From positions 33,175,540 to 33,239,539 of the forward strand of contig NC_091134.1 of the NCBI RefSeq assembly GCF_041381155.1: a DNA stretch of 64,000 nucleotides, written 5' to 3'. The notes beneath the pieces were generated by a model. It did no database searches. It was given only the letters and a program-made list of their open reading frames with translations, and was not told where the DNA came from. Positions 3,819 through 64,000 of this stretch are shown one piece after another. How positions within the stretch are numbered: position 1 is the stretch's first letter; every line of letters starts with the position of its first letter. The translations under genes and the position numbers were made by a program. The DNA is from Argopecten irradians (taxonomy: Eukaryota > Mollusca > Bivalvia > Pectinida > Pectinidae).

Positions 3819-6800
3819 TCAAGATGTATTCTTGCAAATCAACTCCATCCTGAGAATTCTTTGATTTTGGTCGGTCATTTTCCCAATGAATGTCAAAGGG
3901 TTGTGGTCGGTGAAGACCAACACAGGCACAACTGTAGTGCAGAGATACACATCAAATTGGTTCAAGGCCAAAATCAACGCTAAACATTCTTTCTCAATGG
4001 TGGAATAATTTCTCTGGTGTTTGTCAAACTTTTTCGAGAAATAACAAATTGGATGGTCAATTTGTTCAGTACCTTCTTGCATCAAAACAGCACCAACACC
4101 TACATCGCTGGCGTCAACAAACAGTTTTAAACTGTTTATTAAAATCTGGAGCAGTCAGAACTGGTGAGTTTGATAGTATGGCTTTCAATTTCTCAAAGGC
4201 AGACTTACATTCGTCTGACCAGACAAAATTTGACATTTTTCTTTAACAAAGCAGTAAGTGGAGCTGCTATAACAGAGAAATTTTGACAAAATTTTCTGTA
4301 GTATCCAGCCATACCAAGAAATCTCATCAGCTCTCTCTTGCCTCCAGGAGCTGGAAAATCTATAATTGATTCTACTTTTGCCTGAACAGGTTTAACCTGC
4401 CCCTGTCCTACAACATGGCCTAAAAATTCAACAGTTGCATGACAAAATTCACATTTCAATAAGTTTACAGTCAATTTCATGGTAGTGAGTCTCTCGAAGA
4501 ATTCACGAATCCCGCGTAGATGGTCTTCCCACGTGTCGTGGTAGTTGATGACGTCATCAATGTATCCATCACAGCCTTCCAGGTCTGATATCACGCTGTT
4601 AAGAAGACGTTGAAATGTTGCCGGGGCATTCTTCATACCAAATGGCATAACTTTGTACTGGTACAAACCTTGCGAGGTTACAAATGCCGACACTTCTTTA
4701 GCTCTTTCTGTTAATGGCACCTGCCAATATCCTTTCAACAGGTCAAACTTGCTTACGTACTTGGCTTTGCCAACTTTGTCAATACACGAGTCAATCCTTG
4801 GAATTGGATAAGAGTCTGTTTTACTGACAGAGTTTACTTTTCTGAAGTCAGTACAGAACCGGTATGTCTTGTCTGGCTTTGGCACCAGAACACATGGAGA
4901 GCTCCATTCACTTTTGCTTGGTTCAATAATATCATTGTCCAACATGTATTGAATTTCTTTCTTTAAGTGTTCTTCTTTCAAAGGATTGACACGGTAAGGA
5001 TGTTGCTTGACAGGTGGCGCATCGCCTACATCCACGTCGTGATAGATAGCATCTGTTTTGCCTGGTGTATCCGGAAACAAATGTTTATACTCAAGTATCA
5101 AATCTTTAAGTTCATTGCGTTCCTTTTCCGATAGATGACATAGTTTCTTGTCCAAGTTCGCGAGCACATCTGAATTCCTTAACTTAACACCACAGTCTAA
5201 ACCTACATCTTGTACACCACCATCTAAGTCTAATTTACAAATATCAGCTGTACTTTCACTTTGTGATGGTACAGAGGCCAAAGTAGCAATAGGTTGAGAG
5301 GTCTTGCTCTCTTCTCTATCTACATATTTCTTAAGCATATTAACATGACATAATTGAGTTTTCTTGCGCCTCCCTGGAGTTTGTACAATGTAGTTAACAT
5401 CATCGACCTTTTTCTCAACAACATAAGGTCCAAAATATCTAGCTTGCAAAGGCTGACCCGGTATTGGTAATAGAGCCAAAATTTTGTCACCTGGATCAAA
5501 ACTTCTTGCACGGGCATCTTTATCATACCATGTTTTCATTTTGGTTTGAGTAACGGCCAAATTTTCTTTTGCCAGTTCACATGCCCTTGTCAACCTTTGC
5601 TTAAAGTTAGACACATACTCTAAGAGATTCACTTTAGAATCTTCGTCCAAAATTTTGTCTTTCAAAATTTTCAAAGGACCACGTACAGTATGTCCAAACA
5701 CAAGTTCAAAGGGACTAAAGCCAAGAGATTCTTGTACAGATTCTCTAACGCCAAACAACAACATGTGTATACCTTCGTCCCAATCTCTTTTGTTTTCAAA
5801 ACAATAAGATCTCATCATATTCTTCAATGTCTGATGAAAACGTTCTAAAGCACCCTGAGACTCTGGATGATAAGCACTAGACTTATACTGCTTGATCTGG
5901 AGCTGGTACATGACTTGTTGAAAAATACCAGACATGAAATTCGAACCTTGGTCCGATTGGACAGCTTTTGGAAGACCAACCAATGTAAAGAATTTAACCA
6001 AAGCCTTGACTATGTTAGGGGCTTTAATATTCCTGAGTGGAATGGCTTCAGGAAAGCGTGTGGAAGCACACATAATAGTTAAAAGATACTCATTCCCAGA
6101 CTTAGTTTTGGGTAGAGGACCTACACAGTCCTATAATGACTCTACTAAATGGTTCCTCAAATGCTGGAATGGGGTGCAAAGGTGCAACAGGGATTTTTCT
6201 GATTAGGTTTCCCTACCACCTGACAAGTATGACAAGACCTACAAAAATCAGCCACATCCCGTTTCAACTTGGGCCAAAAGAAGTGATCTAAGATCCTGTT
6301 ATAAGTCTTGGTCACACCTAAATGCCCTGCCATAGGTACATCATGAGACAAACTTAGAATATCTTGCCTATACCTCGGTGGGACAACTATTTGATTGACA
6401 ACCTTCCAGTCTTCCTCGGGAGACACATCAGGGGGGCGCCACTTGCGCATCAACACACCTGACTGACGGAAGTAACAAACCGGGACTTTCTCAGCCTCTT
6501 CCTCACTCAAAACCCGATTACACAATAAGGAGATTTCAGGATCTTTCTCCTGTTCTACTATAAGCTCCTCTCTAGACAAAGATGATTTACTCATCATGTC
6601 AGACAAAAGAAGTACCCTTGTTAGGAACAATTCTATCACTATCAAAGTCTACAGGATTGCTCAAAAGATCACACTTGCCCCCGATATCCTCTATATCATG
6701 AGCCAAGAAAGTGTCACCTAACCCTGGACTATAATGATCCTCAACTACTGCAACATCAGAAACCTTCTTACTCATTGAACGAGTTACAGCACAAGAAGGG

Positions 6801-8627
6801 AAAATACCAGGAAATTCCTGTTGAATAGTCTCAGCATCATCTGTTTTATCAGGGATACTGGACACTAAGGGATCTACCCTAACTTTCTCTCCAGCCAAGT
6901 CATTGCCTAAAATGAGCGACACGCCCTCTATGGGAAGTTCCGGTCTAACACCAATGGTGACAGGCCCAGTAACCAAGTCTGACTTTAAATAAACAGAATG
7001 GAGAGGCACATTAACAAAACCTAACTCTACACCTTGAAGCAAAAACACTAGACTACCACATGAGGTCTCCTCAGACAAAGGCACTACGCCATCTAATATC
7101 AAAGAATGAGAAGCCCCAGTATCTCGCAAAATCTTCACAGGTTTTAAGTTGGTCATATCACTAGTAAGTGACACAAAAACCTTCAGAAATGAAGGGAGAG
7201 TACTTCTCCAAGACACTATCAGACTCTGAGCTCTTAATCTCAACAGACACTTTAGAATCTTCCACAATATCACTAAGTTTCTGACTAGGCTTTGACATAG
7301 CTAACACAGAAGGAACTGACTGTTTACGCCTTTGCTCCTTACGCTGGAGAGAATAACATTCAGACATAACATGTCCTACTTTCTTGCAATAATTACAAAC
7401 AGGACCAGAAGGAGACCCCACACCTGCCCTATGATCTGTTTTAGAAGCAGACTTAGTCTTATCACCTAATTTAGGTTTGTCGTTAGAAGGGCCACTAAAG
7501 GTTGGGTTCCTAGGCTGACCAAATTTACTAGTACCTGTGGTACTGTTTTTGTCTTGAGAACTGTTTTTAACAAATGAGCCTTTGTGGGTGAGTAGCGTTA
7601 ATCATCAGCATTGTAGCTGCTTCACTAAGTGTTTTCAACTTTTCTCTCATCTAATGAGTTTTTATGTTTGTGTGGACACAACGTTTTAAACACCTCTATC
7701 AACAATAATTGCCTCTATTTACCGAAATCCTCATCAATTTCTTTTAGAATCACACCACCTATTAAAATAATTGTTCCTTTTCTCTGGCAAATTCTACATG
7801 AGTTTGTTCATCTCTCTTTTCTCGAGTTTTGAAATTTCTGGCGGTAAGCCTCAGGAACTAACGTCATAAGCTTTCAAAATAGCTTTCTTGACTACTTGGT
7901 AATTTGAAATGTCATCTACAGATAAAAAAGAATAAATGTCTCTAGCTTTACCTATCAAGACACTTTGAAGAAGCATTGTAAGCTTATCTTCAGGCCATTT
8001 CATACTATCAGCTATTTTCTCAAAATGCAGAAAATACTTGTCAACTTCTTTCTCTTGAAAAGGAGGAACTAACCTAATGTTTCTACTGACATCAAAACCT
8101 CTGTTTCCTTGTAAACCCCTAAAAGTTAGATTACTTGAACTGTCTTGAGAAGCTAGCTCTAATTCTTTCATTCTAAGTTCTGTTTCAGCTTGAATTTTCT
8201 GCTTCTCTAGCTCTAACATCTGATCTCTCTCAATTTCTTTTTCTCTTAACTCTCTTTCTTTGTCTATTTCTTTTTCTCTTAACTCTCTTTCTTTGTCTAT
8301 TTCTTTTTCTCTTAACTCCTTTTCTATTTCTCTTTCTCTCATTTCTTTCTCTATTTGTTTCATTTTCATTTCATGTTCAAGTTCCATTTGTCTAATTTGG
8401 ATTTCTGAAGTGACTGTTTCCTCTATACTATCTAATGCACTAGAGTCAAATTTGCCATTGTCAACAAAATATCTTATAATTACATTCCGAATTTCAGCTT
8501 TCCTCAAATTAGTTTTGATAGCTAGGCCTAAATGTTTACTCAATAACAATAAATCCTTCTTAGTAACTTGCAAAAGAACTTCCAGGGATGGCGCTTTAAC
8601 AAACTGTTCTACCTGCATAGTAGTCAT
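3819..8627 (-). pseudogene. Fossil gag-pol region of the LTR element
   Basis: Recognisable parts, in element order: Gag-like segment rich in Glu/Lys/Arg repeats (8,627-7,851), CCHC knuckle (about 7,400-7,350), protease with a DTGAS motif (about 7,130), HHCC integrase finger (about 6,370-6,210), integrase core with DQGSNF (about 5,950), reverse transcriptase with YIDD (about 4,560), and RNase H with TDHNPLTF (about 3,900). Integrase core and reverse transcriptase share one reading frame (6,073-4,205), which fixes their order directly. The region is interrupted in several places and is treated as a fossil. Confidence 0.88.
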
Positions 8628-8733
8628 ATTTATCTAGCTGTTGGTTTCAAATGTAAACTCAAAGTTTGTACACAAATTTTTGACAATTTCTAAATTAATA
8701 TTTTCAAAGTTAGATTTCACAAATTAAATATCG

Positions 8734-15808: not shown

Positions 15809-18800
15809 ATGGCCGCCCGTTATCCGTCGGGCATCCAAACGAGCAGAGTAAGTTTCGAAACATTGCGGGAATTATGAAAATTGTGAAATTGTTTTTCTAA
15901 CTTGTTAATGTTAAGGAATCATTTTATTTGTTTTCATCAATTTCAGGTCAGTCCATCCTATCTCCATGGAAATTCAACCAGTCACACTTGGGCATTTAGT
16001 GCTGTTGCAGAACTAATCGGTACAGTAGGCCTATGACTGACCATCACTTTCCTAAAAATAGCACCATTATAATTTTGATAAGGTGCTAGATCTATATGCA
16101 CAAACAAAATAGTTCCATTGTTATTTTGAAGTTGGCTTACTTGCAACTAACTTACTTACTGCCTTAAAAGTAGTTACATTACTGCAAAAGAATTTAAAAA
16201 AAAAAAGAGGAAAACCCACGAAAGTGATCATGCATATGTTGTATGAATTTTTAGACTGAGAAAAGTCAGATTAGAATCTGGTATTGGCTTATGATTTTTT
16301 CTATCTCTGTAAAAGTAAAATATTGTCTAATACATACATTCTATATTTGTATACAATGTGTGAAAAAAAAATCTATAGAAAAAATTGTTTTCTCAGAATT
16401 CATAAAACAAAACTAAAAGAAAAAATAATCCGCCTACTTTCTAAGAAACATCCGAAATGAAAATATATATGAATTAATTTATTATTTTAAAGGAATAGTA
16501 CAGAAGCCTGTTAGCTAGGGCCACATTGAAAAAAAAAAAATGTCGTTCTAATGATGTCGTAGTAACAACATAGTATCTTGTTAAAATAACTTTGTTATGT
16601 TGTAATAGTAACATATTATTGATATCTTGTATTAACAAATTAACTACATATGTCATTAGAACAACTTATGTTATGGTAATAACGACTTACAGTACCATGC
16701 CAAAAGTATTCGGTCACAATGGCGGCGTGTTTACATGACGGTTAAAACGAAACGAATTCCAAATTACTTTTACTGATATACTACACAGTCGATTGCAACG
16801 GTATTACACACTTACCTTCAGTATTTTGTAAGATGTCCTTTCAATCTGATTACGTTTAAAATTCGTTTAGGGATCGTGTTGTACAAGCTTTGAATGTAGC
16901 AAGGTGTGATTTCCGTCCAAATCCTCTGAATCTCGGAGAACAAGTCATTTGCCGATTTCACAGCTGCTACTCGAGACTGAAGTTTTCTTTTTATTAATAA
17001 CCAAAGATTTTCAATTATGTTTAAATCTGGTGATTGAGCGGGCCAACTCATTCCATTAATTCCGTTCTGGGCGATGTAGTCTTGGGTGGACCTCGCACGG
17101 TGAACTGGGGCATTGTCGTCTTGGAAAAAATAGCCACCAGTAGGAAAATGTCTGGCAAGAACTGGCCAAAGATTTTCCTCCAAAACCTCCTGATATTTTG
17201 CAGCATTAATATTTCCTTCCACTCGAGCTAATGTCCCCACACCGTTCCAACAAATGCACCCCCAAATCATAACCTCGAGTTTGTTTTGGGTATTACGCGG
17301 CTGCACAAGATCCGGTCGCCATCCTTCACCCCGCTTTCTCCATATATAAACTCTGTGGTCCTGTCCAATAACTATTTTGCTTTCATCCGAGAAAATAACT
17401 CGCTTCCAATTATATATTGTCCATCTCCGCTTTTCTCTACACCAAGCAAGTCTCTTAGTTCGGTTACTCTGCTTCACGACAAGTTTCTTCCTAGAAACAC
17501 ACCTGGTATACCCATGTTGGCTCAGATGTCGCTGAAGTGTTCTTTTAGAAGTCGAAACATTACTTTGCTCATTGTATTTAATGGTAACATCAGTAAGGGA
17601 ATCCCTCCTATTGTTTTTAACAATCCTCTCCAAAGAACGATAATCCCGCAAATTCACTAACTTTGGTCGTCCGCTTCTCGGCCTGTTTTCCACTGAACCA
17701 CATGTACAAAATTTGTTAACAATGTCAATAACTGTGGACTTGGGTATTTTTAACATCATACCTATCTTTCGTCGTGAATATCCACTCCTAAACATCCCTA
17801 CGATCATATTTTTAACGCCCATTGATAGTTCTTTTCCTTTTCGGCCCATCTTGGCAATACACGGCCACGGGAAAAACAGAAAGCAGACGACAACAAAAAA
17901 TTGTGTGACGTAACATGACGTCATACGCAAACCTAAAAATGACGCACGTCATCATCAGTGACGTTTACAATGAATGCCAAGGCCATTTTCAGCGATGTTA
18001 TTGACACGACGTTAACACGCCGCCATTGTGACCGAATACTTTTGGCACGGCACTGTAGCTATATGTCGTTATATCGACTCAGTATCTTGTAATAACTTCT
18101 TACGTATGTCATTATAACGACATACCTATGTGGTTAGTCTCTCATAATAACTACTTACCTATGCAATAATAACAACTTACCTATGCCGTTATAACAGCTT
18201 AGTATCCTGGGCTTGCACTAACTTTCCTGTTTGCTTAGCAAAAGTTATGAAAGTGATTTTTTCTCTTTAGCAAATAAAAATTTCATTCAACAAATTGTGC
18301 ATTCACAGCATTTCATCATGAAATACATTAATTTACTAAGAAGCATTTAATAATGTATGTTATGCATCAATTGAAAAGTACACACAAACCATACTTCGTC
18401 ATGCATATTGTTACTTTACATCCCTTCAACATTAAAATATATATGGTACAGTAACTGATTAATTTATCAACTATAACAGTGTTTTAGACTTGCTATGAAA
18501 GTAATCCGATTGAAAAAAAACAGATGTTTGAAGCTTGTGTCTGCGTGATAGGATATCAGATGTGTGATAAAAAACTTCAGCATTTTTTTTGCGAATTAGG
18601 ATGAATTTATTTTAGCAATTAGCCAGATCGATTCCTTAATAACGAAAATGCGAATGGGAAGCGTAAGCCCAGGTATCTCATTATAATGACTTATGTCTTT
18701 ATAACGATTAAATATCTCCTTATAACAACATACCTATGTCGAAATAACAACTTACCTATGTTGTTATAACAACTTGGTATCTCATAATAAAGACTTACCT

Positions 18801-21800
18801 ATGTCGTTATAACAAATTAGTATTTCGTAATAACGACTTAGTATCTCGTTATTACGACATAGGTATAATACCTCTTAATAACAACTTAGCTGTAAGTATG
18901 TTGTAATAGCGACTTAGTACATTTGTATATCATAATAATGACTTAGCTATATATGTTGTTCATGGTTCGTTCAGAAATTATAAAAAGAAAATCAAAGACT
19001 TTTTAATGACTTTTCAAGGCCTTTTTTGTCATTTTCAAGGCCCCATTGAAATCAAATTTAGATTCATTCAATACAAAAATAATATGTTATGTTGGCTTCA
19101 ACTTTTGGAATGATTGCTGAATTGATTATTAACCATCACTGATGATTATGAATGAAGAAACAGTTCATTAAATGAAGTTCTGGGATGTGTCTATATCAGA
19201 ATGAGTGCACGGTCCAGAGTATGCAATTGAAAATATGGATTTCAGGTCGATTCACCCTGAATTTTGAATGTGGGATCAAATGTCATTTTAGAGCAAATGT
19301 ATTTTTTAAGGACTTTTCAAGGCTGTTGGTGAATTTCAAGGACTTTCAAGGCCAAACACTTAATTTAAGGACTTTCAAGGCCAACCATAAATTCAAGTAT
19401 CTCGTTGTGTTCTTCAGTGCTTCTCTTGTAAAGAGTATGGCCACAAACAAAAAATGTGTAGTGTTTCAAATATCTGTTAGGGACTCGGCAAAGAAGGTGT
19501 TGCCTTAACTACCAAATCCTATAACAAACTACCATATTTAGAAAACTCTGTGCATGTCTTCACTTCAAATTATGTTTCTGTAAATCGCTTTAACATCCTA
19601 AACCATATGGACTTATGTAACTCATGTGAAAATGAGAAATGCTCATGTATTGCTAATTCATCTGCTATCATAGTTAAAAAACCATATAATCAAAAGCAGT
19701 TGACTCAAAAATCCTCAAAAGGATCAAATGAGATTTGTATTTCAAATGTAAGGACAGAAAAGGGGTCTCTACCGAACAATAATAAAACTCCTGATAAATC
19801 TTTATCAATTTCAGGAAATACATGTAATTCTAAATCAAATAACATATTACAAACTCTAGATAAAAGAACAACAAGTGTACATAATGATACCAATATATCA
19901 CACACTAAGTCTATTCCTTCTAGTCAACCTAATAGTAAATATACTGATCCCAACATCAACGTGAATTTAAATACTTTAAATTTTCTGAGTAAAGGCCTTC
20001 ACATAGGTAGTTGGAATATTAGACATTTGTTACCAAAAATTGATGAAATAACTTTTCTTTTACAACAGAATCACTCTATTCATGTGCTTGGTTTATGTGA
20101 AACTTTCCTATCAGATATTGTCAATGACACCTTAATAAACATTGAAGGATTTAATATGGAGAGACGAGATAGAACAAACCGAGTAGGTGGAGGTATTGTG
20201 ACTTACATTAAAGAAAGCATACCATATACCAGAAGAAGTGATCTAGAAGAAGAAGCAATAGAATGTATTTGGCTACAAATTAATCCTAGCCATAGTAAAA
20301 GTATTCTGATTTGCCACCTTTATAGACCTCCTAGCAGTAATGTGTCCTGGATTGATGTATTTGATCATATGATGGATAAAGCAACAAGTGAAGATCTTGA
20401 AGTACTTATCATGGGAGATTTTAATATTGACCTACTAAATACAGCCAATACTCAAAATATAAAATGGGAAAATGTGATATCAGAACATAACCTTACTCAA
20501 CTTGTGAACCAACCAACTCGAGTAACTGAAAATACTAGTACTCTGATCGATCATATATACTGCAGTAATCCTGATATCACTACAGATGTCATAGTGCCTA
20601 GCATAGCAATAAGTGACCATTATCCAGTGTGTATCACAGTAAAAACCAAATCGTCTAAACAAGCATCTTCATCACACAAAACAATATCATACAGGTGTTT
20701 TAAAGAATTCAATGAACATAATTTCTTATCAGACCTATCATCATCAACAATCAATGAAATTTTCCTAATAGAAGACCCAAATGAGGCTTTATCTCACCTA
20801 ACCTCTTCAATTTTAGATACATTAAACAAGCATGCACCAATCAAATCTAAAAGAGTGAAAATACCCAAACAGCCTAGCTGGTATAATACCGAGATATCAA
20901 ATGCAAGGAATCTCAGAGACAATTATCACAAAAATAAAGATATGGTTAACTACCGATTATGGAGAAACAAAACAAACACCTTAATATTGAAGTCAAAAAG
21001 AGAACTCTTTAAGAACGCAATTAAAAATAAAGTACCTAGTAACACTTTATGGAATCATTTAAGTAGCATGACGAAAACTGCAAACAAAAATCAATTACCA
21101 ACAGAAATCTTCTGTGAAAATGAGCATATTACTGGTAAACAAAACATCCTAAATTATCTTAATAATCATTTTGTGAATATCTCTGACAATATTAAGAAAA
21201 AGCCATTTAATGAAAGTGATCATGCCCTTTTTCACAAACAGGTAAACGAAAAAGTAGGTAATAGCCCAGCTTTTTGTATTCCATTAATTAAAGTGGATGA
21301 AACTTATGATTACATAACTAGGCTTGATGCTACTAAAGCAGTGGGGAATGATGGAATAGGTCCTAAAATTCTTAAACTATGTAAAGACTTAATATCATCA
21401 CATATTTCACATATAATTAATATTAGTGTGAATAAAAATATCTTCCCTAATATATTAAAGGAAGCTAGAGTAGTTACAATACATAAAGGCAAAGAAAAGG
21501 AAAATCCAAATAATTATAGACCAATTTCAATTTTACCAACTCTTTCAAAAATATTTGAAAAACATGTAACTAAGCATCTTTACAAATATCTGACCAAATA
21601 TAACATACTGCATAGCTCTCAGTCAGGCTTTCGATCTCAGCACTCGTGTCAAACAGCTCTCATTAATCTGCTGGACACTTGGCTTAAAGGTATAGACAAC
21701 AGTCAAATGATAGGAACGCTTTTTATAGATCTACAAAAAGCTTTTGACCTTGTTGATCACAAAATACTTCTTCATAAACTTAAACTTTTAAATGTATCAA

Positions 21801-24800
21801 TGTCAAGTCTGCAGTGGTTTACATCTTATCTATCTGGCAGATTTCAATCTATACAATCAAATGGTATGTCATCCTCTCCTAAATTGATAAAAACAGGTGT
21901 ACCTCAGGGCTCAATTCTTGGTCCACTTATGTTTCTTATTTATATTAATGATTTACCAATGTATGTAAAACAATGTAATGTTGATATGTATGCTGATGAT
22001 ACGACTATACACACAAAAGGCAGTACTTTACCTGAAATTGAACAAAGCCTTCAAGAAGATATTAAAAACATTTTTAGGTGGTGCCAATTTAATAATATGA
22101 ACATAAATTTACAAAAAACAAATAGTATGCTTATTGGGAGTAAGAGGAAAATAGCAGGAATGGATATCCATCTAGTAGTAAATGATACACATATCAATCA
22201 TTCAAATTGTCAGAAAGTCTTAGGTATTTACATAGATAAATTTTTAAACTGGTCAGAACAAGTAAAAAAGGTAGCATCTAAGCTCTCAATAGCAATTGCA
22301 TTACTACGAAAAATGAAAAGCTATCTACCAAGAGAAGCTAGGAAAATTTACTACAATTCCTACATTTTACCAATTTTAGATTATGCCGCTATAGTCTGGG
22401 GTAATGGTTTGACAAAACAACAAATAAATCATATTACAAAACTACAAAAGAAAGCTCTTAGAATAATGCTAGATAAACCAATACTATCTGACAGTTTGGC
22501 CCTTTTTAAAGAAGCTAAAGCACTCCCTTTTGAACTCAGATTAAAATATCATACTGTAATTTTGGTTTATAAAGCACTGCATAATATGACACCGGATTAT
22601 ATATGTACTTTAATTGAAACTTGTCAAAATTCTTGCTTGTACAAACTCAGATCAGCTACAGAAAATAAACTCCTTTTACCTAAGTTACAATCAGAGACAA
22701 TGAGGAAGTCATTCAGCTACTCTGGAGCTGTATCTTGGAATAATCTTCCACTTGATATAACACACTCCACATCCCTTGTAACTTTTAAGCAAAAGTTAAG
22801 AAATTATTTACTATCAAACTTGATAATCTAAATGAATTATTTATTTACATTATGCTTAATATATGTTACCTATATCAAAACAGTTCCTATTATTTCGTTT
22901 AAGGAATATATACTATACAGTATACTGTATATGAAACAGTAATGTATGTGTTTCATTTCACTTGTGTTTTTCCATTGTATTCTATATAGATTGTTATCAT
23001 ATGCATGTGATGTATATTTTGATGATTTATGTCAATTTTGTTTGTGTTTATATAATTGAGGGCCATATGGAAGATTAGCTCCATGCTAAATATGCCACCC
23101 TCAATAAATAAAGTATTATTATTATTATTATTATTAAGGACTTTTCAAGGCCTTTAACCACCATGTTGTTATAACAAAAAAGCTAAGTCATAATTATGAC
23201 ATCTTAAGTCGTTATAATGACATAGGTAAGTCGTTATTATGACATACTAAAGCCTAATTAGACCCAACTTAGAATATGCAACCCAGGTATGGTCTCCACT
23301 GCTAAAAAAAGATCAGATTGCTCTTGAAAACGTCCAACGAAGAGCCACTAAAAGAGTTCACTCTATTGAAAATCTACCATACCATTCAAGACTTAAAAAG
23401 TTGGGACTTCCCACTTTAGAATACAGACGTAAAAGGAACGATGTGATCGAAGTCTATAAAATTCTGAACGGAATAGATAAACTAGATAAAGACAACTTAT
23501 TTATAATGTCTTCAGCTAGTACTAGAGGTAATAGTTTAAAACTCTTTAAGAAACAGAGCAGGACTAAAGTCACACAAAGTATATTTAGTCGGCGAGTTAG
23601 TAGTTATAACGACATAGGTAAGTCGTCATTACAACATACTAAGTCGTTTTAATAACATAGCTAATTGTCGTTAAGCAGTCACCCAAAACACACATTTCGC
23701 ACTTCACACACTCTACACACTGCATATACATACGAAGTTGTTATTGCGATAAAGGTAAGTTGTTATTACGAAATACTAAGTCATTATAATGACATAGCTA
23801 AGTCGTTATGACAAGACACTATGTCATTATTAGGATATCCTAAGTCATTATAACAACATGATATTTTTTTCAATGTGATCCTTAAAGTGTTCCGTAATAT
23901 AGTAATTATATAAATGATATAATTTTACAAGTTAGCACTTGCAAACATTTCTGTCAATATAAATTTGATTTTAACCTACGTTAGTTTGGATTCAAGTCAT
24001 AAGTAATTATGGTAGTAGTGTGTGATTTTTTTTATCACATACATATACACCATTATCTATAATCATTTCCTCTGATGATTTCAGACAATGCCTATGACCC
24101 TGATGTTAATGCGTCCGAGATCTGGATTGACCAGCGATTGATTGACAATAAAGTGTGTCTCACATTTGTAGACAATGGTAATGGAATGACACCAGATAAA
24201 CTACACAAAATGTTGAGGTATGTGGCTTTATGACATGTTCTACACAAACATCTACGTACTTTATAATGTTAAAAATTAAATTAAATTAATTAAAAAAATA
24301 TCAGTAAAGTTTCCAATTTAATGAAAATATGCTTGAATCATATTGGTTAAAATTTTGAATTTATTTATTGTATCACGCCTGATCTTCTCCTTTCAATTTC
24401 CTTATTAAAGTTAATTTTCAATTTTGTACTGGTAATAAGTAATTATATATGATAAATTGATAATAAGTAAAAATAATATTACATTTTAGGTTACATTGTG
24501 CATATAAGATTAAACAAAATGTAAAATGTTAAGAGATATATGTAAATATGTATTATCAATTTATTTGTAAAAAATATTGAATATTATTTTATAAAGTATG
24601 TAATATCTGCCTTTTCAGCTTCGGCTATTGTGAAAAAGATAAGTTTACATCTGGTAAACACCAGGCTGTGGGACAGTACGGCAATGGGTTTAAGTCTGGA
24701 TCCATGCGATTGGGCAAAGACGCCATAGTGTTTACACGTCAAGTGAACACCATGAGTGTTGGGCTCCTGTCACAGACCTACCTACACAACATCAACGCAC

Positions 24801-45757: not shown

Positions 45758-48700
45758 TCATCCAAACCAATGGTTGCCTTGGCAGTCTCTTGTCCATTCT
45801 TTTTCACACATCCAGCACCACTCAAAATAACACCGAGAACAAGACATATGCATACAGCCACCTGTCAAAATCAACAAATACTTGGTAAGTATACCAAGAA
45901 ACTGCTTTAAAACTATATACAGTAAACTACGAACATCATTATTTTAGCAAGTTAGCGATAATTCCTGTGCTCTATTTTGACATTAATATTATTTTGCAAA
46001 GTTTATAGTTTGAATGTGCTAAAATATGATAACCACTAATATTTGTACATTTACAGCATTAGGTTGTTGGTTTGACATTTGATGAATACCTGCTTTTTCT
46101 GTTTTTGTTTTACAGTTTGGACAAGGTTTAGAAATACGACCAATCGTCTCCAGCGATTCCAGGTCCCACCTGGCTCTCATCTCCTGTTCTTCACTCACGT
46201 TCAAGTTCTGTTCATATAAATACATGTTCACAAATTAATACATATACACAAATGAATATATCGACAGCCACCAGAACATATTAAATAGATAGAATAAGAA
46301 ACGAAGAGAATCGATGCTAGAGTTTGAATTTATAAGATCACAATAAATTATCAGTTGCAGACAACAAAAGTGATAAAAGGTTTTGTTTTTGTTTTATTTT
46401 GGTAAAGTCTTTTTATGCAAAAACTAATATGAAATTAAAACAAAATCAAATTAAAGATCATGCCTATTTCTATCTTTCTTTTTTTCTTATGGACTGTTCA
46501 AGTCATTTTAGGCCAAGCATTACGTGACATGGTTATAGTTTTATCTCACCTGTGAAGAAGCCTCTTGTGGCATCACAGCCTGACAGTCTGGGTCCTCGTG
46601 GTACTCGACCTTACACTCTCCACAGAAGGCATACTACACAGACAAAATTTTCTCTCTTAATTCAGTTTTTAGTTCACTGCTTCTTTGAATTAATGCTTTT
46701 TGACACAGGGGGCCAACTCAATGAAAATGGATGTTGTCATACATTTTTTGTATTTGGTGGATGAACTGATGAGTATATATGACAGTCATGTGATTTTTTT
46801 TGAGAAAATATGAAATTTGAAAAATTATTAAAAAAATCGGGATATTTTATAGTAAATATATTTTATAAAAAAATGTAAATATCCCGATTTTTTAAACAAT
46901 TTTTCAAATTTCATATTTTCTCAAAAAAATCACTTGACTGTCATATATACTCATCAGTCCATCCACCAAATACAAAAAATGTATGACATCATCCATTTTC
47001 ATTGAGTTGGCCCCCTGTGCTTTTTGATAGACATCAAATTTAAAACCATAATTCAATTGTGTGTGGTTTGGCAGTAAGGTATATATGCTGGAGTTTCTGG
47101 AGAAAAACCACAGACTCATAAATACAGTGTAGGATACACAGAAATTGGGAGGGGCATCAATATACAGTAATGATCAAATGGTTCAGGTATCTGACAACCT
47201 TCCAGTTGTCCTCAACCACTGGGTTATTAGTTTGAAGACTTAGTGGGGCAGTTCCTAAATAATGGTTTTTCTCCATGAACTCATGCTTTTTTCTGTCACC
47301 AAAACTTACACATCTGACCATAGATGTTAGTAAGACATAAGATACAAACAATTAAGTCAGAGCTTTATGATTCAACTATCCGAACAGCCTGGAACATAAT
47401 AAGCAGTGGAAAGCTATATATTGGGAAAATGTCAACCAGCTTACGTACTTGGCCATTTTGTACTTCAGTATGCACTTCAAAGACTGATGTTTTTTTTGAT
47501 ATAATAGACTTATATAAATTGATATCTTACCTGACAAGTTGGACAGGTAACCTTTCGAGATGCCTCGGACAAGATAAATCCTGATCCACAGCCGACAGCT
47601 GGACAGAGCATGCCTCCATTCTGTAGTACATATTCCTCTGTGGCAAAGTTCTTGTAACGCTCATACTGGGTCATCAATACAATAGTACATCATTGTAACG
47701 CTCATACTAAGTTGTCAATACAAAACAGAATATTTACTGTAGCAATTACATCTTTTCAATGATTGATTTCATTTATTGTATATAGTAAAATTCATAAAGG
47801 CAGCTTTTTTTAAAGAATCGTATAATTTCCACATGTGAGTTGGCATTAGGAATACATTAAAGGTGACAGAGAATTGGATGATGGTGGATAAATTATAATG
47901 ATAATATTAGAACAATAACAATTGAGGAAAATTAGTAGAAAAATGATACCTGGTCAGTCCCTAAAAGATAGAAATGATGACCATCTTCTAGCAGGGATTC
48001 CGGACACCCAACTGTGAATGTAAACCAGTATCAATATGTTAATGTCAATATTCATCTTCTGTACCATAGTGGTTGGCATGGATTGGCAATGAAGTTGGCA
48101 ATGGTGGTAGTGGGTAGGAAGAGGGAGTGGGGTGCTGAGGCTGGAGTTTCGAGAGATATCACTTGGTTTATTTTGTCAAACATCTTATTAGCAGCCAGGG
48201 TCATTTTTGAATCGTTCATTTGGCTGAAGAGGTAGCTGGATAATTTGGATAATGTACATTGAACTATAGTGAAGTCAGTGCCTAAGAACTGCTTTCATGG
48301 TTTGAACATGCAAACCAGAGTTAGAGAGCTGGTGGCTGAATGTTCAGGAACCTTAACCACTAGGTCATTGCATGGTAAGGAGATCAGAAAAGATTTTAAT
48401 AAAACCATGATATATCCAAATTGATATAAATGTGACTTTTAAGACAGACTGAATGTTCCGAGCTTTCGGAAACGACTGCTACATAAAACACAACAAAAGT
48501 ATTTTACCAAAGGTTAGATAGTTATTTGAGGTACTTGTTGTAGGGTTTCCCACCTCTCAGATGATGCAGAAGACAAGAAAGAAAGGAATATAGAAATATC
48601 TAGGACATAAACATTCCATAATAGGACATGACTGGAAAGGATGGGGCAGGACTGGAAAGGATGGGGCAGGACTGGAAAGGATGGGGTAGGACAGGAAAGG

Positions 48701-51700
48701 ATGGGGCAGGACTGGAAAGGATGGGGCAGGACTGAAAAGTATGGGACAGGACTGGAAAGGATGGGGCAGGACTGGAAAGGATGGGGTAGGACCGGAAAGG
48801 ATGGGACAGGACTGGAAAGGATGGGGCAGGACTGGAAAGGATGGGGCAGGACAGATCTGGGTTACACTATACATTGTATACATTTCATATTTCATGATAA
48901 AAGGCATATACATTCCTGAGGTAGGTAAGTTAAGTTTTGTTTGGCCTTCCACACTCGTAATAGGAGTTTTTTAAGACAATCTGAGTAAAATTATCACATA
49001 CACATCATCATAGACCTACAGGATGCTTTATTTTACCTGGACATGGTAAACTGTAGCCTATTTCCTCATCCTCGGTGAAATTCCTCTCATTCAGCCTCAC
49101 AACACCATAGGATTTGAAGCAGTCCAGACAGATAATGTGGCGCCGTTCACATGGGAACACCATGATAGGAGATCTGTATGTATGTGAAGAACAGTAAATT
49201 GGTATAGCACAACATCCGTAATGAAATAAAAAAAAGTGGTTTGTCACATCTATGTCATGTACTTGTCATGTACTTTAAAACACACTGCTGATCAAAATTT
49301 CATTTCAGACCTGTTACAATTCATCAAGTGAATGTTGCATTTTCTATATGCTACCAGCAATATTCCGTCGCTCAGCAAGTAGACCTTTTCTATTTTATTA
49401 TCAAGTCTTTTAGTAAAATACATCTACATTTTCATACATAAATTGTGTATCTTCATTTCAAACAAAAGATCTCACAGTGCCTGTATCATTCACTTGGATA
49501 TCAACAATACAGGTAGTGAAAATCATGTGGCTTATAAGTATGATTAGTCCCACAATCTAGCGATATCGATTCTGATGTCATATTTTGGCAGAACTGTTTG
49601 ATGTGAACAGTCACCAAAAGGTGAGAACATTCATACTGTAATGATATGTAAAAGGAACCGATCAGTGTGGCTTGTACATAGTGTTAAATACGGTCTCTGT
49701 CACTCAGCTGACGGAGCATGCTTCTTTGGCTCAGTCAGTAGAGCCATAGATTTTTTTACACTGGAGACCCAGATTCAATTCCTGATGAGGACACTAGACA
49801 GGAATCGTGTGTATTTTTACCTGTTCTACAGATGCATTATCATCTCAAAATTGAGATATCTACATCCAATACCAAGAACTCACTCTATTTCTGAGCACAC
49901 GACACAAGTTCTGCGTTTCCTGTTTGGACGAACATGTTTTAACACTGCAGCAGTTTCTCCCTCTTCGCTTTGGTGTCCTGTACATTTGAAGTAAAAATTC
50001 TGAAATACAAATAGGTGTTTTATGTTAATGAATGTTCAGTTGATGTTATTTTGAAACTTGACATATAAGCCAAAAAAAATATGTCTGTTTAGGGTTACAT
50101 TGGCAAAAAAAATAGGGAAGGTAAGTCGGGAGGATTCTTAAGTAATGGCCTGAGCCGGAGTCTGAGATCGAAATCCAGAATTTTAATTTTTTTTTCGTCG
50201 AAAAGTGGGGGAAAAATTAAGGTCGGGGGTAAAATATTGGGGTCAGTCTAAACAGACTTATTATTTTTTTTGGCCTTATATCAATTATGAATCTTTATTG
50301 AGGTCCATATGGTGTTATACCGCCCTAGCAGAACAAATGATAATCCAGGGCATAGATTTTTATGTTAGATACCAGTAGTTTCTTTGACAAATATCAAAAT
50401 ATTCTCTGATGTGCATGCTAAATTACTACAAAAAATATAGTCATAAGACAACACCCTGAAGAGCTCAGTGTTTGGGAAATGAAGTTCTAAAAGAAGTATT
50501 GACTCTGTATTATGTTGGTAACACATGAATGTACCATGCATCTACATCACACATTCTGGGAATGATTGTCTATAAATGATTTTAAAAGTTATATGTGCCG
50601 TAACTTGTCAAACATTTTTGACCAGTATTTTTTTCGTTCAGAAATCTACTGAAATCCACAAGTTTTGATGAAATATTAAAAGCCAATGGCAAACATGTGT
50701 ATAATAAGATTAATAACAATACAGATTTTACACTATGTAAAAACCCTGTGTCTGTGAATCTGACTGTCAGTTTGACTTCCTTCCTGTCTGTTCATACATT
50801 TAATTTGTTACACTCTTCTAATCTATACTCAACGCTTCACTTTGTTACAGTTGTCTGTCTGTTTGCCTGTCTGTTTTTGTATTTGTTTGTTATTTGTTAG
50901 ACTATTTTATACTCACCACTTCCCTTTCCTGTCCATCACACTGTTCACTTTTACATTCTCCTAGGATACGCCCTCGTTTTAATACATCATCAAAGTTATC
51001 AGGATCCTGTGAAAACATCAAACGATTTTTCCTCAGCATAAACTTACAGGTAAAAATAAGACATATGTAAGAAGATTACTTCTTGTACAGGTATCTGATT
51101 CACAAAGTAGAAAATATCTGTAACACTTGAACACCCATTCCTCCATGGTCCAAAGTATTATAGGACAAACATGGATGGGACCATAAAAATATTGAAGAAG
51201 TAAATGTGAACATTAGAGATGAGGCAGAATCAAGGTGGAAAACAACAGATCAAGTGCAAACAAATGATGAACTTGAAACAATGTCTGGTAAATTGGTAAT
51301 GACTTTCATACTTACAGTAAGTGAATGTAACAGTCTTACCCTGGACAGGACGATGTGTCCACTCCTACACGATAAACACCGGACCCTCAGCTTTCCTGGA
51401 CGCAGACACTCACAATCTTTACAGTAGACAAAGTACTGGTAGTTAGGTTCTCCTGGTCAAGGCAGAAACATCAGATAGAATTAAAAGTATACACCAATTG
51501 AATTCTAATAGTTATTAATTAGTAATGTATACCTTTATGCTAGTAAAACACTAATCCTGTTTAAGTCTGTTTCAACCCCAGCTTTTTGCTAACCTATATG
51601 AGTCTGTTTTAACCTCAACTTTTGCTAACCTGTTTGAGTCTGTTTTAACCTCAACTTTTGCTTACCTGTTTGAGTCTGTTTTAACCTCAACTTTTGCTAA

Positions 51701-60495: not shown

Positions 60496-61216
60496 TTAAC
60501 TGAAACCATAGGCCTCAATGACTTTCTGGTATGGTGCAATTTTGGATGCTACATTCTTTGTCGCCTTGGCTCTCAACACCTACAAAATATAAAACAAACA
60601 ATCATTTATTATGCAAATCAAAAGAAATCTTTATGAATGTCTTTAACTCATTCATCCCTGTAATTTCACAATGAACTGGTCAAGTCGTAGAATGAGAAGA
60701 GTACAACTTTATCATAAGGGTGATGAGTTGCATCATATAAGTCCTGTTTATACAAGGCATTTCCGGTTCACTTTAATTATAACTTGTAGTTAATTAGTGA
60801 CATTTAAGACCAGGTGTTTGTAATCATTGTACAAATTCTTAATATGATTCGAACATATTTGGAAGTATAGATCAGCTAAAACATTTAAACCAACTTATTT
60901 TCAATGCGTTTCATTTATACCTTTTTGGTTTTCTATTATAATTGGTGAAAAATAAATCACAGTGAAAATTCCCTGCAAGTACAAAAGTGTTTTACATGTA
61001 AATCACGAAATTAAATTGCCATGTAAACGTCATTAGCAACGTGAAAATCAGTTGGTTTACAGTATATAACCTAGTAAATTATTGGTTACTTACAGCAGCT
61101 GCCTTCTTCTGCTGGTAGAACTGCTTTGATTTGACCTTCCTCTTGGCTTCAAGGGTAGAAATCACAGTCTGGTACTTCCATCCAACTTCATGGGCCAGAC
61201 GGTTGAGGTCACAGAA
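60496..61216 (-). CDS. RPL13A: Ribosomal protein uL13 (RPL13A), last two exons
   Basis: A protein of the large cytosolic ribosomal subunit. The exon at 61,216-61,094 (41 codons, phase 0 at both ends) reads [16 protein letters not shown] then [29 protein letters not shown] is the conserved uL13 signature. The last exon (60,579-60,496) reads [20 protein letters not shown] and ends YGFS. The two correspond to the last third of the human protein (203 residues). The N-terminal exons lie beyond the right edge: none was seen in 61,217-64,000, which appears to be a single intron loaded with snoRNAs. Confidence 0.95.
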
Positions 61217-61510
61217 CTGAAAAGGGAAAAAAGATTGTGGTAAAATCTAAGGTCCACTCTGTAAACTATACAATTAATGTCTTGGGTTGTATGTAAATCT
61301 AGGTTGGGTGTAAAATGTAAAATTCTGTATGTATTTGCTTTTGCATTTGACGATGTATCTTAACATACACTCTTGGACTCGTTTATTGAACTTTGACTCG
61401 CCTTTCAAAAAGAAAAGTGCTGACAAGGTGATAGTCATTTCACATCAACTTTCATGAACACGAGGTACAAATGTGATGTTCATCCCAATGGTTTAATTAA
61501 ATTGATAGAT

Positions 61511-61593
61511 GTCTGCCTCAGTTGGTGGTACATGAATTGTTTTCATGACTTGTCAACAAAGATTCGGTGTGACATGGTTTCTCATCATCAACA
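61511..61593 (-). ncRNA. Box C/D snoRNA, type A copy 1 (SNORD33-like)
   Basis: Minus strand: C box ATGATGA (61,588-61,582) and D box CTGA (61,521-61,518), with end stem TGTTTG/CAGACA. The 12 nt CATGTACCACCA just before the D box pair with the conserved 18S rRNA segment TGGTGGTGCATG (one G-U pair). The fifth base from the D box points to the uridine methylated by vertebrate U33. Confidence 0.88.
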
Positions 61594-61907
61594 AACATCT
61601 GATAAACGCAACATTGTCCGCAGGTTAAAATACTTAAATATAATTTTGTATACATGGTAATCCCCTGAATAACATAAATAATGAAAAGAAAATGAAAGAT
61701 GGAAAGAGAAATTTATTACAAAATCAATGATGCTTTCAAAGTCATTTTCCTTGTAATTCATCCAAAACCTATTGCCAATAACACAATTAAAACGCTCAAT
61801 TAACTTTTTAAGTTGGAACAAACTCTTTACTTATCCTTTTGTAATGTTTATACATGTATTAATGTCTCTAAAAACAATGATATCTGGATCATTCTGTGCC
61901 TGTCTCA

Positions 61908-61981
61908 GTTGGTGGTACATGAATTGTTTTCATGACATGTCAATTGGATTCGGTGTGACATGGTTTCTCATCATCAACAGG
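61908..61981 (-). ncRNA. Box C/D snoRNA, type A copy 2 (SNORD33-like)
   Basis: C box at 61,974-61,968, D box at 61,918-61,915; the same 18S guide as copy 1. End stem less clear (CTGTTG/CAGGCAC). Confidence 0.85.
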
Positions 61982-62230
61982 AACTAACAATAGACATATC
62001 CGTATTGACATATCAGGATAAGTATATCAATGTTTACATAACTTATACACTTCGACCAAGATTTAAGTCGCAGCCAAAAAGGAAAATAGCAATAAAAATG
62101 AAAATCACACACAAAACAAAAACAACAGGGGCTTGATAATATACAATACATACACTGAAATATGTTTTATTATCTATATATTGGACTCATCAAAAGGGCC
62201 ATTTTAGCATTTCAAAATGAAAGGCTTGGC

Positions 62231-62313
62231 GTCTGTCTCAGTTGGTGGTACATGAATTGTTTTCATAAAATGTCAACTAGATTCGGTGCGACATGATTTC
62301 TCATAATCAACAA
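62231..62313 (-). ncRNA. Box C/D snoRNA, type A copy 3, altered C box
   Basis: The D box (62,241-62,238) and 18S guide are kept, but the C box region reads TGATTATGA instead of TGATGATGA. The copy may be inactive. A 670-bp block starting here is repeated at 62,901. Confidence 0.7.
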
Positions 62314-62553
62314 GCATCACTGCACTGGTACAACATTTTATACTTTGAGGTGTTAATTATCAATCAAAAGAAGAATAGGTCTGGAAGTTGTTTCAAATAA
62401 AACTATTTTCAGTACTGCATATATCCCTAAAATGTGCTATTTCAAACTGATCTTGAAAATAATCTTAATCACAGATTATTTTACTTCATAAAGTTAACTG
62501 TATCAACAGACAGTGTTTACCTTGTTCTGCTACAAAGTTTAGAGATAATGGAA

Positions 62554-62635
62554 GCTTGTCTCAGTTGGTGGTAGAAGACAATGACCACATGTTCATCAAA
62601 CAATGAATCGGCGAGTTCATTCATCATTAACAAGC
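62554..62635 (-). ncRNA. Box C/D snoRNA, type B copy 1
   Basis: 82 nt with a perfect end stem GCTTGT/ACAAGC, C box ATGATGA (62,627-62,621) and D box CTGA (62,564-62,561). The sequence before the D box, TACCACCAA, overlaps the type A guide only in part; the middle differs (CTCGCCGATTCATTG before a D'-like TTGA). Its target is not recognised. Confidence 0.82.
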
Positions 62636-62900
62636 AAGTAAGTATGGTCAGATTGTAGAAATACATATATTTTTTAAATCAAATGTATTTTATATTTGCA
62701 CTTAAAAAAGCATGCATGAATTGATGACAAGTTTACTTTTGATATGTAGAGGAAAATCTGCTTAAGAAAGTATATACTTTTTCATCCCACAAATTACAAA
62801 GCATGGTGCATATACTGTAAATGTACCAACAAAAGCTATTCTTTATTTCAGAACTTTGTTTTTTATTTAACAACTTGAGAGTAACTACTTAATTTTCTGT

Positions 62901-62983
62901 GTCTGCCTCAGTTGGTGGTACATGAATTGTTTTCATGAAATGTCAACAAGATTCGGTGTGACATGGTTTCTCATCATCAGCAA
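62901..62983 (-). ncRNA. Box C/D snoRNA, type A copy 4 (SNORD33-like)
   Basis: C box 62,977-62,971, D box 62,911-62,908, 18S guide intact. The downstream sequence 'caagcatcactgcactgg' is shared with copy 3, showing block duplication. Confidence 0.88.
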
Positions 62984-63303
62984 GCATCACTGCACTGGTG
63001 GGACATTTTATACTTAAAACTATCCATTGAATTAATTTTAAGGTGTTATACTCATTACACCAATTGCAAGTCGAAAGAAATATAAGAAAAGAAGTGGTTT
63101 CAAATAAAATATTTTTAGTACTTGGTATACACCTTGTTATCTCAATGTAATCTTGAAAATAATCTTCATAACAGATTATTTTCTTTCATAAAGTTTACTG
63201 TATCAACAGTCAGTGTTTACTTTGTTCTATTTATAAGCTATTAAGTTTTGATATACTGGAGGTTGATTAATCAACTAATGCAACTTGACCTTTTGTTAAC
63301 CAA

Positions 63304-63385
63304 GCTTGTCTCAGTTGGTGGTAGAAGACAATGACCACATGTTCATCAAACAATGAATCGGCGAGTTCATTCATCATTAACAAGC
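63304..63385 (-). ncRNA. Box C/D snoRNA, type B copy 2
   Basis: Identical to type B copy 1 over the whole 82 nt, including the end stem, C box (63,377-63,371) and D box (63,314-63,311), while the flanks differ more. Confidence 0.85.
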
Positions 63386-63547
63386 AAGTAAGTATGGTCA
63401 GATTGTAGACATACATTTTTTAAAAACCAAATATATCCAAAGTATTGTAGTTGAAAATGACTACTGTATTTGAAATTTCTGTTTACCAACTAAAAGTATT
63501 TCTTTATTCCAGAACGTTAGAACAAATACATCAGGTAAATTTTCTTT

Positions 63548-63631
63548 GTCTGCCTCAGTTGGTGGTACATGAATTGTTTTCATGAAATGTCAACAAGATT
63601 CGGTGTGACATGGTTTCTCATCATCAGCAGA
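63548..63631 (-). ncRNA. Box C/D snoRNA, type A copy 5 (SNORD33-like)
   Basis: C box 63,624-63,618, D box 63,558-63,555, 18S guide intact; the same core as copy 4. Confidence 0.88.
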
Positions 63632-64000
63632 TATGCAATAGACAAAACATTTACATACAACTTTTTTTCTCACTGAAAGAAACAGAAACCACAACATAAT
63701 TTTCTTCCATTTCCTCTTTTCTGCAATTAAATATAACAGGCGGACGATACTACAAATCCCTTATTTAATACTAAACTTTGCACACATTGATTCAGTAAGC
63801 CATCCCTTCCATAATTGTTTCTGATCAAAATTTTCTTTTACTTAGGATATGAAAACTATTTTTTGGCCTAATATCACCGCAGATAAATATTTTTTTAAAT
63901 TTTTATAAAATGTAAAGTTTTACAGATAGTTTTGTTGAGAGCATTAATTAATATCAGTGCTTCCCAAATCATTGAAGTTTGTAAATTTTTTTCTGTGTCT

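Follow-up and report, generated by a model that had tools for sequence, protein, structure and literature searches.

Nine box C/D snoRNA-like copies lie in intron 5 of the ribosomal-protein gene RPL13A of the mollusc Argopecten irradians, six belonging to one type (type A) and three to another (type B). In the order of transcription, they are B3 A6 A5 B2 A4 B1 A3 A2 A1. The window analysed (64,000 nt, C1:33175540-33239539 of the 845.8 Mb genome, G000) stops within this intron; positions above 64000 carry the window count on into the adjoining genome DNA (record L009, whose coordinate plus 61000 is the window count). A preliminary description had counted seven copies of two alternating types. 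All seven are real and lie on the minus strand, but the adjoining DNA raises the count to nine, and although two types are present, their order is not strictly alternating. If an intronic snoRNA gene cluster is taken to be at least two snoRNA genes in one host intron, nine lie here between exons 5 and 6. Most intronic snoRNAs of animals are alone in their intron and are set free by debranching of the lariat and trimming at either end (PMC11028025); the contrast with such a rule, drawn for vertebrates in the preliminary description, agrees with that source.

The exons were searched by tblastn, using a human RPL13A sequence as query. On the minus strand, six gave matches; the short last exon reached E 0.024, and each of the other five had an E of at most 4.3e-7. 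The spliced translation was compared with solved structures and matched 56 distinct chains (E up to 1e-40), nearly all of them uL13/L13a/L16. On this sequence comparison, the host gene is RPL13A. Exon numbering assumes one further short exon upstream, the position of exon 1 not having been located. The intron is 3,637 nt long and runs on the minus strand from 64853 to 61217, between the end of exon 5 at 64854 and the start of exon 6 at 61216; its borders are GT and AG, and the exon junction (RK/FCDL) is in frame. Neither tblastn nor a six-frame reading by eye showed an RPL13A-like exon between the snoRNA copies, and the earlier reading of a single intron without RPL13A exons between the copies is supported at the level of coding sequence. 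A paralog or second haplotype copy of RPL13A was also sought: a C-terminal 85-aa query returned one genome locus at E up to 0.001. Coordinates are collected in Table 1.

Table 1. RPL13A exons, intron 5 and snoRNA-like copies (window count, unless a coordinate in the adjoining record L009 is given)
Feature	Position	Strand	Remarks
RPL13A exon 7 in this numbering (last coding exon)	60496..60579	-	ends ...EAYGFS stop; E 0.024
RPL13A exon 6	61094..61216	-	tblastn and reading frame
RPL13A intron 5, portion inside window	61217..64000	-	continues to 64853 (L009:217-3853)
A1, SNORD33-like, type A	61512..61595	-	RF00133 37.1 bits; stem 10; box D 61521-61518
A2, type A	61899..61981	-	RF00133 38.9 bits
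A3, type A	62232..62314	-	RF00133 27.9 bits; box C damaged (UUAUGA); missed by box scan
B1, type B	62554..62635	-	RF00147 27.8 and RF00133 25.5 bits, both below gathering score
A4, type A	62902..62984	-	RF00133 33.7 bits
B2, type B	63304..63385	-	core identical to B1
A5, type A	63549..63631	-	RF00133 38.7 bits
A6, type A	63998-64080 (L009:2998-3080)	-	RF00133 37.0 bits; only 3' tip 63998..64000 in window
B3, type B	64515-64596, beyond window end	-	adjoining genome DNA
SNORD34-like, intron 4	L009:4082-4153 and 4527-4598	-	Rfam relaxed match
SNORD34-like, intron 3	L009:4872-4943 and 5469-5541	-	Rfam relaxed match
SNORD34-like, intron 2	L009:5951-6015	-	Rfam relaxed match
SNORD91-like, intron 2	L009:8097-8185 and 7005-7091	-	39.9 and 36.3 bits; gathering score 51

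Other features of the region can be mentioned here. The window contains Pfam domains of a Tc1/mariner-type transposase (16818-17948, minus strand) and of a LINE-type reverse transcriptase (19481-22831, plus strand), a stretch that resembles a gypsy-type element by eye only (4205-8633, minus strand), and a translated short tandem repeat (48514-48970, minus strand). A 17-bp hairpin is found at about 64682-64726 (L009:3682-3726), in the spacer that separates B3 from the 5' splice site of intron 5; this spacer has a fold z of -2.96.

Box C (RUGAUGA) is present in eight of the nine intron 5 copies, and fails in A3. Box D (CUGA) is found in all nine, CUGA being part of the pattern by which the copies were listed. 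A terminal stem of 5 to 10 contiguous pairs was found in eight of the nine copies, A3 not being scanned as it is without box C. Both strands of 23 kb and 30 dinucleotide shuffles were scanned for the two boxes together with a terminal stem of five pairs or more. The scan yielded 14 candidates on the sense strand and none on the antisense strand, whereas the shuffles averaged 0.17 and never exceeded 1. Two of the 14 are double calls, and one more overlaps another call and is probably spurious; recovered were eight of the nine intron 5 copies, both SNORD91-like copies and one of the five SNORD34-like copies described below. With boxes and terminal stems in place and this excess over the shuffles, the box C/D type proposed earlier is supported. 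Family membership is less clear-cut: at gathering score, Rfam gave no match in the window. With relaxed E-values, type A matches RF00133 (SNORD33) at 27.9 to 38.9 bits without reaching the gathering score of 44, and it is therefore named SNORD33-like rather than a member of SNORD33. Against RF00147 (SNORD34), B1 and B2 score 27.8 bits, below the gathering score of 38, and B3 is not among the matches listed. The terminal stem of type A covaries only weakly: 83.3% of its cells are paired, a value as high in 35 of 500 shuffles, and its count of double changes was reached in 180 of 500 shuffles.

Comparison of the copies with one another indicated that cores are kept while flanks diverge, as had been proposed. 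A4, A5 and A6 share 97.6 to 98.8% identity over 83 nt. In the nearest 20 nt, identity is 10 to 25% in the 5' flank and 45 to 65% in the 3' flank, and out to 60 nt it is 10 to 40%, that is, at or near chance. Such kept cores with chance-level flanks could result from selection or from very short gene conversion confined to the snoRNA. The block duplication suggested in the preliminary description is shown for one block only, A3+B1 compared to A4+B2. Within this block, 158 of 165 core sites agree, compared to 302 of 416 aligned sites outside the cores (Fisher, P = 1.3e-11). All seven core differences lie between A3 and A4, B1 being equal to B2. From its sequence, A3 is likely a decaying copy.

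A DNA search of the 845.8 Mb, in which the best candidates were scored, found six type A copies, all of them in intron 5, so that the spread of type A appears to be local. Type B, searched likewise with the best candidates scored, was found four times, three in intron 5 and once at C3:37176856-37176931. This stray copy (L112:4957-5032, plus strand) is 92% identical to B1; judged by eye, its terminal stem is only some three pairs long, and a host gene was not recognised around it. The 14-mer made up of guide and box D occurs at 13 places in the genome, nine of them in intron 5, compared to eight places for a reversed control pattern; among the other four, box C was seen by eye only at the one on C3. 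Two further sources of copies were considered and set aside. Dispersed snoRNA retroposons find no support in the genome, where the search showed no type A copy and a single type B copy (that on C3) outside intron 5, and relatives were not recognised in viral contigs, where 65 loci share a 15-mer and none of the 65 has a box C in place.

All six type A copies read ...UUCAUGUACCACCAA upstream of box D. Nucleotides 2 to 14 of this guide pair with UGGUGGUGCAUGG of 18S rRNA over 13 bp, two of them G-U. Guide nucleotide 5 then faces position 1269 of a yeast-like 18S (record L016, counted with the U of GACUCAAC as 1191), the Rfam SNORD33 consensus having the same register. Yeast 1269 is taken here as the equivalent of human 1326, since each would lie equally far from a nearby modified U (1191 in yeast, 1248 in human). 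The pairing register was found in all seven records holding a eukaryote 18S (L012-L018); these come from viral and prokaryote collections, were retrieved by a pattern about 20 nt downstream of the target, and represent the 18S of other eukaryotes. The rDNA of the A. irradians genome was not found with three probes, the 28S probe giving only a stretch of about 90 nt, 83% identical. In controls, the score of the type A guide was reached by none of 100 shuffled 18S and by one of 300 shuffled guides. A pairing extending through box D with 18S CUUAGUUGGUGG was also examined; the rule of the fifth nucleotide would place it at about yeast 1293, and the register at 1269 is better. U33 is listed for 18S-U1326 in PMC6466398, which gives its host as RPL13A in the text and as RPL13 in a table. 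We conclude that type A probably directs 2'-O-methylation of the 18S rRNA position that corresponds to human U1326. It resembles SNORD33 (U33, RF00133) in its RPL13A host, its box C/D type and the register of the D guide to this U. The two differ in number, six copies being present in one intron here as opposed to one, and in sequence, the letters of the type A guide being different, with G-U pairs elsewhere, and its scores remaining at 27.9 to 38.9 bits where 44 are required.

Type B retains UACCACCAACUGAG, but preceded by CUUC, and the SNORD34 guide to 28S, UUACCUACAUUG, is absent from it. B1, B2 and B3 agree in all of the last 24 nt up to and including box D, although the core of B3 differs from that of B1 by 11%, and the guide therefore looks kept. 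Against 18S, type B finds 8 bp only, and 20 of 100 shuffled 18S do as well. Directly at box D, it forms ten Watson-Crick pairs with UUGGUGGUAG in the Rfam eukaryotic LSU consensus, a fit equalled in score by 19 of 300 shuffled guides; type A itself pairs over 9 bp with the same site. The 28S records differ at this site: type B pairs over 8 bp in L015, and in L017 its best match lies elsewhere, with 7 bp. Type B consists of relatives of type A with a changed guide, which possibly has another target, and 28S as that target is a lead only. For the D' guides of both types, nothing convincing was found in 18S and in a partial 28S from which the last third or so is missing.

RPL13A carries further snoRNA-like copies. 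SNORD34-like copies are present in introns 2, 3 and 4 (one, two and two, respectively), and intron 2 also contains two SNORD91-like copies, all of them below the Rfam gathering scores. Introns 2 to 5 thus each carry at least two snoRNA-like copies, and a relaxed Rfam search gave no snoRNA-like match in the last intron. The five SNORD34-like copies have little in common except box C, the guide UUACCUACAUUG and box D. In the two of the five that were examined, this guide pairs with AAUGUAGGUA of the 28S in L017. In 10 of the 11 pairs of their outer stem, a structure derived from the same sequences as those tested, both partners have changed, a count that none of 500 shuffles reached, with 69.1% of cells paired. 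As a control for dense packing of another family, U14 was searched in the genome; among 118 of 14,726 candidates scored, six SNORD14-like matches were found, none over the Rfam cut-off. These lie at C4:18918925-18924786, C4:33984639-34032280 and C16:13620377-13620472, and no coding host was recognised in the one region read.

How could nine copies leave a single intron? Debranching followed by end trimming would free no inner copy, and exonuclease stops alone, the first route named in the preliminary description, would free only the two outermost copies of the linear intron, so that either internal cuts or a long RNA with snoRNA ends would be needed. Yeast and plants cut between polycistronic snoRNAs. 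We consider it moderately probable that the locus is a local tandem-duplication cluster, that type A guides the equivalent of 18S U1326, and that the copies are released by internal cuts. The cluster would have grown by local tandem duplication within RPL13A. The gene would be transcribed and intron 5 spliced out as one piece, box C/D proteins assembling on every copy at the kink-turn and terminal stem; once the intron was debranched, an endonuclease would cut between the copies and exonucleases would trim to the protected ends. The copy number would serve dosage. What the sequence shows is the anatomy of the copies, the borders of the intron, the complementarity of the type A guide and the pattern of conservation, with no further type A copy found in the genome; expression, RNP assembly, internal cuts, methylation and the role in dosage are inferred. 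Internal cutting is preferred because the cores of the inner copies are kept. Besides the low Rfam scores, the weak stem covariation of type A and the lack of a convincing D' target, two observations count against the reading as a whole: the spacers between copies (163 to 434 nt) have no shared strong cleavage hairpin, only two of ten stretches having a fold z below -2, and 295 nt separate the 3' splice site from the closest copy. In vertebrates, a distance of roughly 70 to 80 nt between snoRNA and 3' splice site is favoured.

The same kept cores bear on a sno-lncRNA, in which exonucleases would stop at B3 on the 5' side and at A1 on the 3' side and leave about 3 kb of RNA bearing as many as nine snoRNPs. 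What such an RNA presupposes, two snoRNAs in one intron (PMC4234469 and PMC11028025), is given here by constitutive gene structure with nine copies, and PMC4234469 reports a mouse RPL13A sno-lncRNA ended by SNORD33 and SNORD34 and seen on Northern blot. We nevertheless regard this outcome as unlikely, the conservation of the inner cores fitting release, or at least function, of each copy. A more elaborate version, in which a poly-snoRNP of about 3 kb is constitutive and type B has drifted to a new 28S site (the fifth base of UUGGUGGUAG), appears improbable; if it were true, one ribosomal-protein intron would give both an extra dose and a new guide.

Function of every copy is questioned by a reading in which one or two genes work and the remaining copies are decaying or idle, kept alike by gene conversion. 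The damaged box C of A3 and its seven core differences from A4 point this way, as do the identity of B1 and B2 and the duplication of A3+B1 and A4+B2 as one block. The near-identity of A4, A5 and A6 between chance-level flanks is harder to accommodate, since conversion tracts would have to stop near the snoRNA ends, and the stems pair in the eight copies recovered by the scan; we think it rather doubtful that most copies are idle. Finally, hidden non-coding exons or recursive splicing might divide intron 5, and the copies would leave in smaller pieces. A juxtaposed ACAG/GTAAAG lies just after B3, at about 64503 (L009:3503), and there are four further AG/GT(A/G) sites. Sites of the GTRAG form, however, number just two in 3.6 kb, and the RPL13A protein requires no coding exon within intron 5, which makes a division of the intron the least probable of the readings considered.

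Intronic snoRNA clusters are already known; what is new here is that one ribosomal-protein intron carries so many copies and that type B has a changed guide. Intronic snoRNA gene clusters were described in rice and then in Drosophila (PMC2780460). Those clusters and the present one have in common at least two snoRNAs in one intron, and differ in that nine related copies occupy a ribosomal-protein intron here, a comparison made by kind and not by copy count. In the mouse RPL13A sno-lncRNA, SNORD33 likewise shares an RPL13A intron with a second snoRNA. According to PMC4234469, however, this requires alternative splicing and involves two snoRNAs, whereas gene structure gives nine here; the same source places SNORD34 in the shared intron, whereas the SNORD34-like copies of A. 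irradians lie in other introns. Cis-duplication in vertebrate host genes (PMC2653536) and in sponges (PMC3412847) also multiplies paralogs within one host, but usually in different or neighbouring introns rather than in one. No earlier description of mollusc RPL13A snoRNAs was found in the literature searched, most subscription papers being outside its coverage.

A nine-copy intron in a housekeeping gene, for which one locus was found, provides a natural test of cutting versus long RNA in animals. The cluster further illustrates the expansion and drift of a guide family, with kept cores, lost flanks, a decaying copy and a subgroup with a changed guide. The presence of SNORD33 and SNORD34 relatives in RPL13A, both here and in mammals, fits a very old association with this host.
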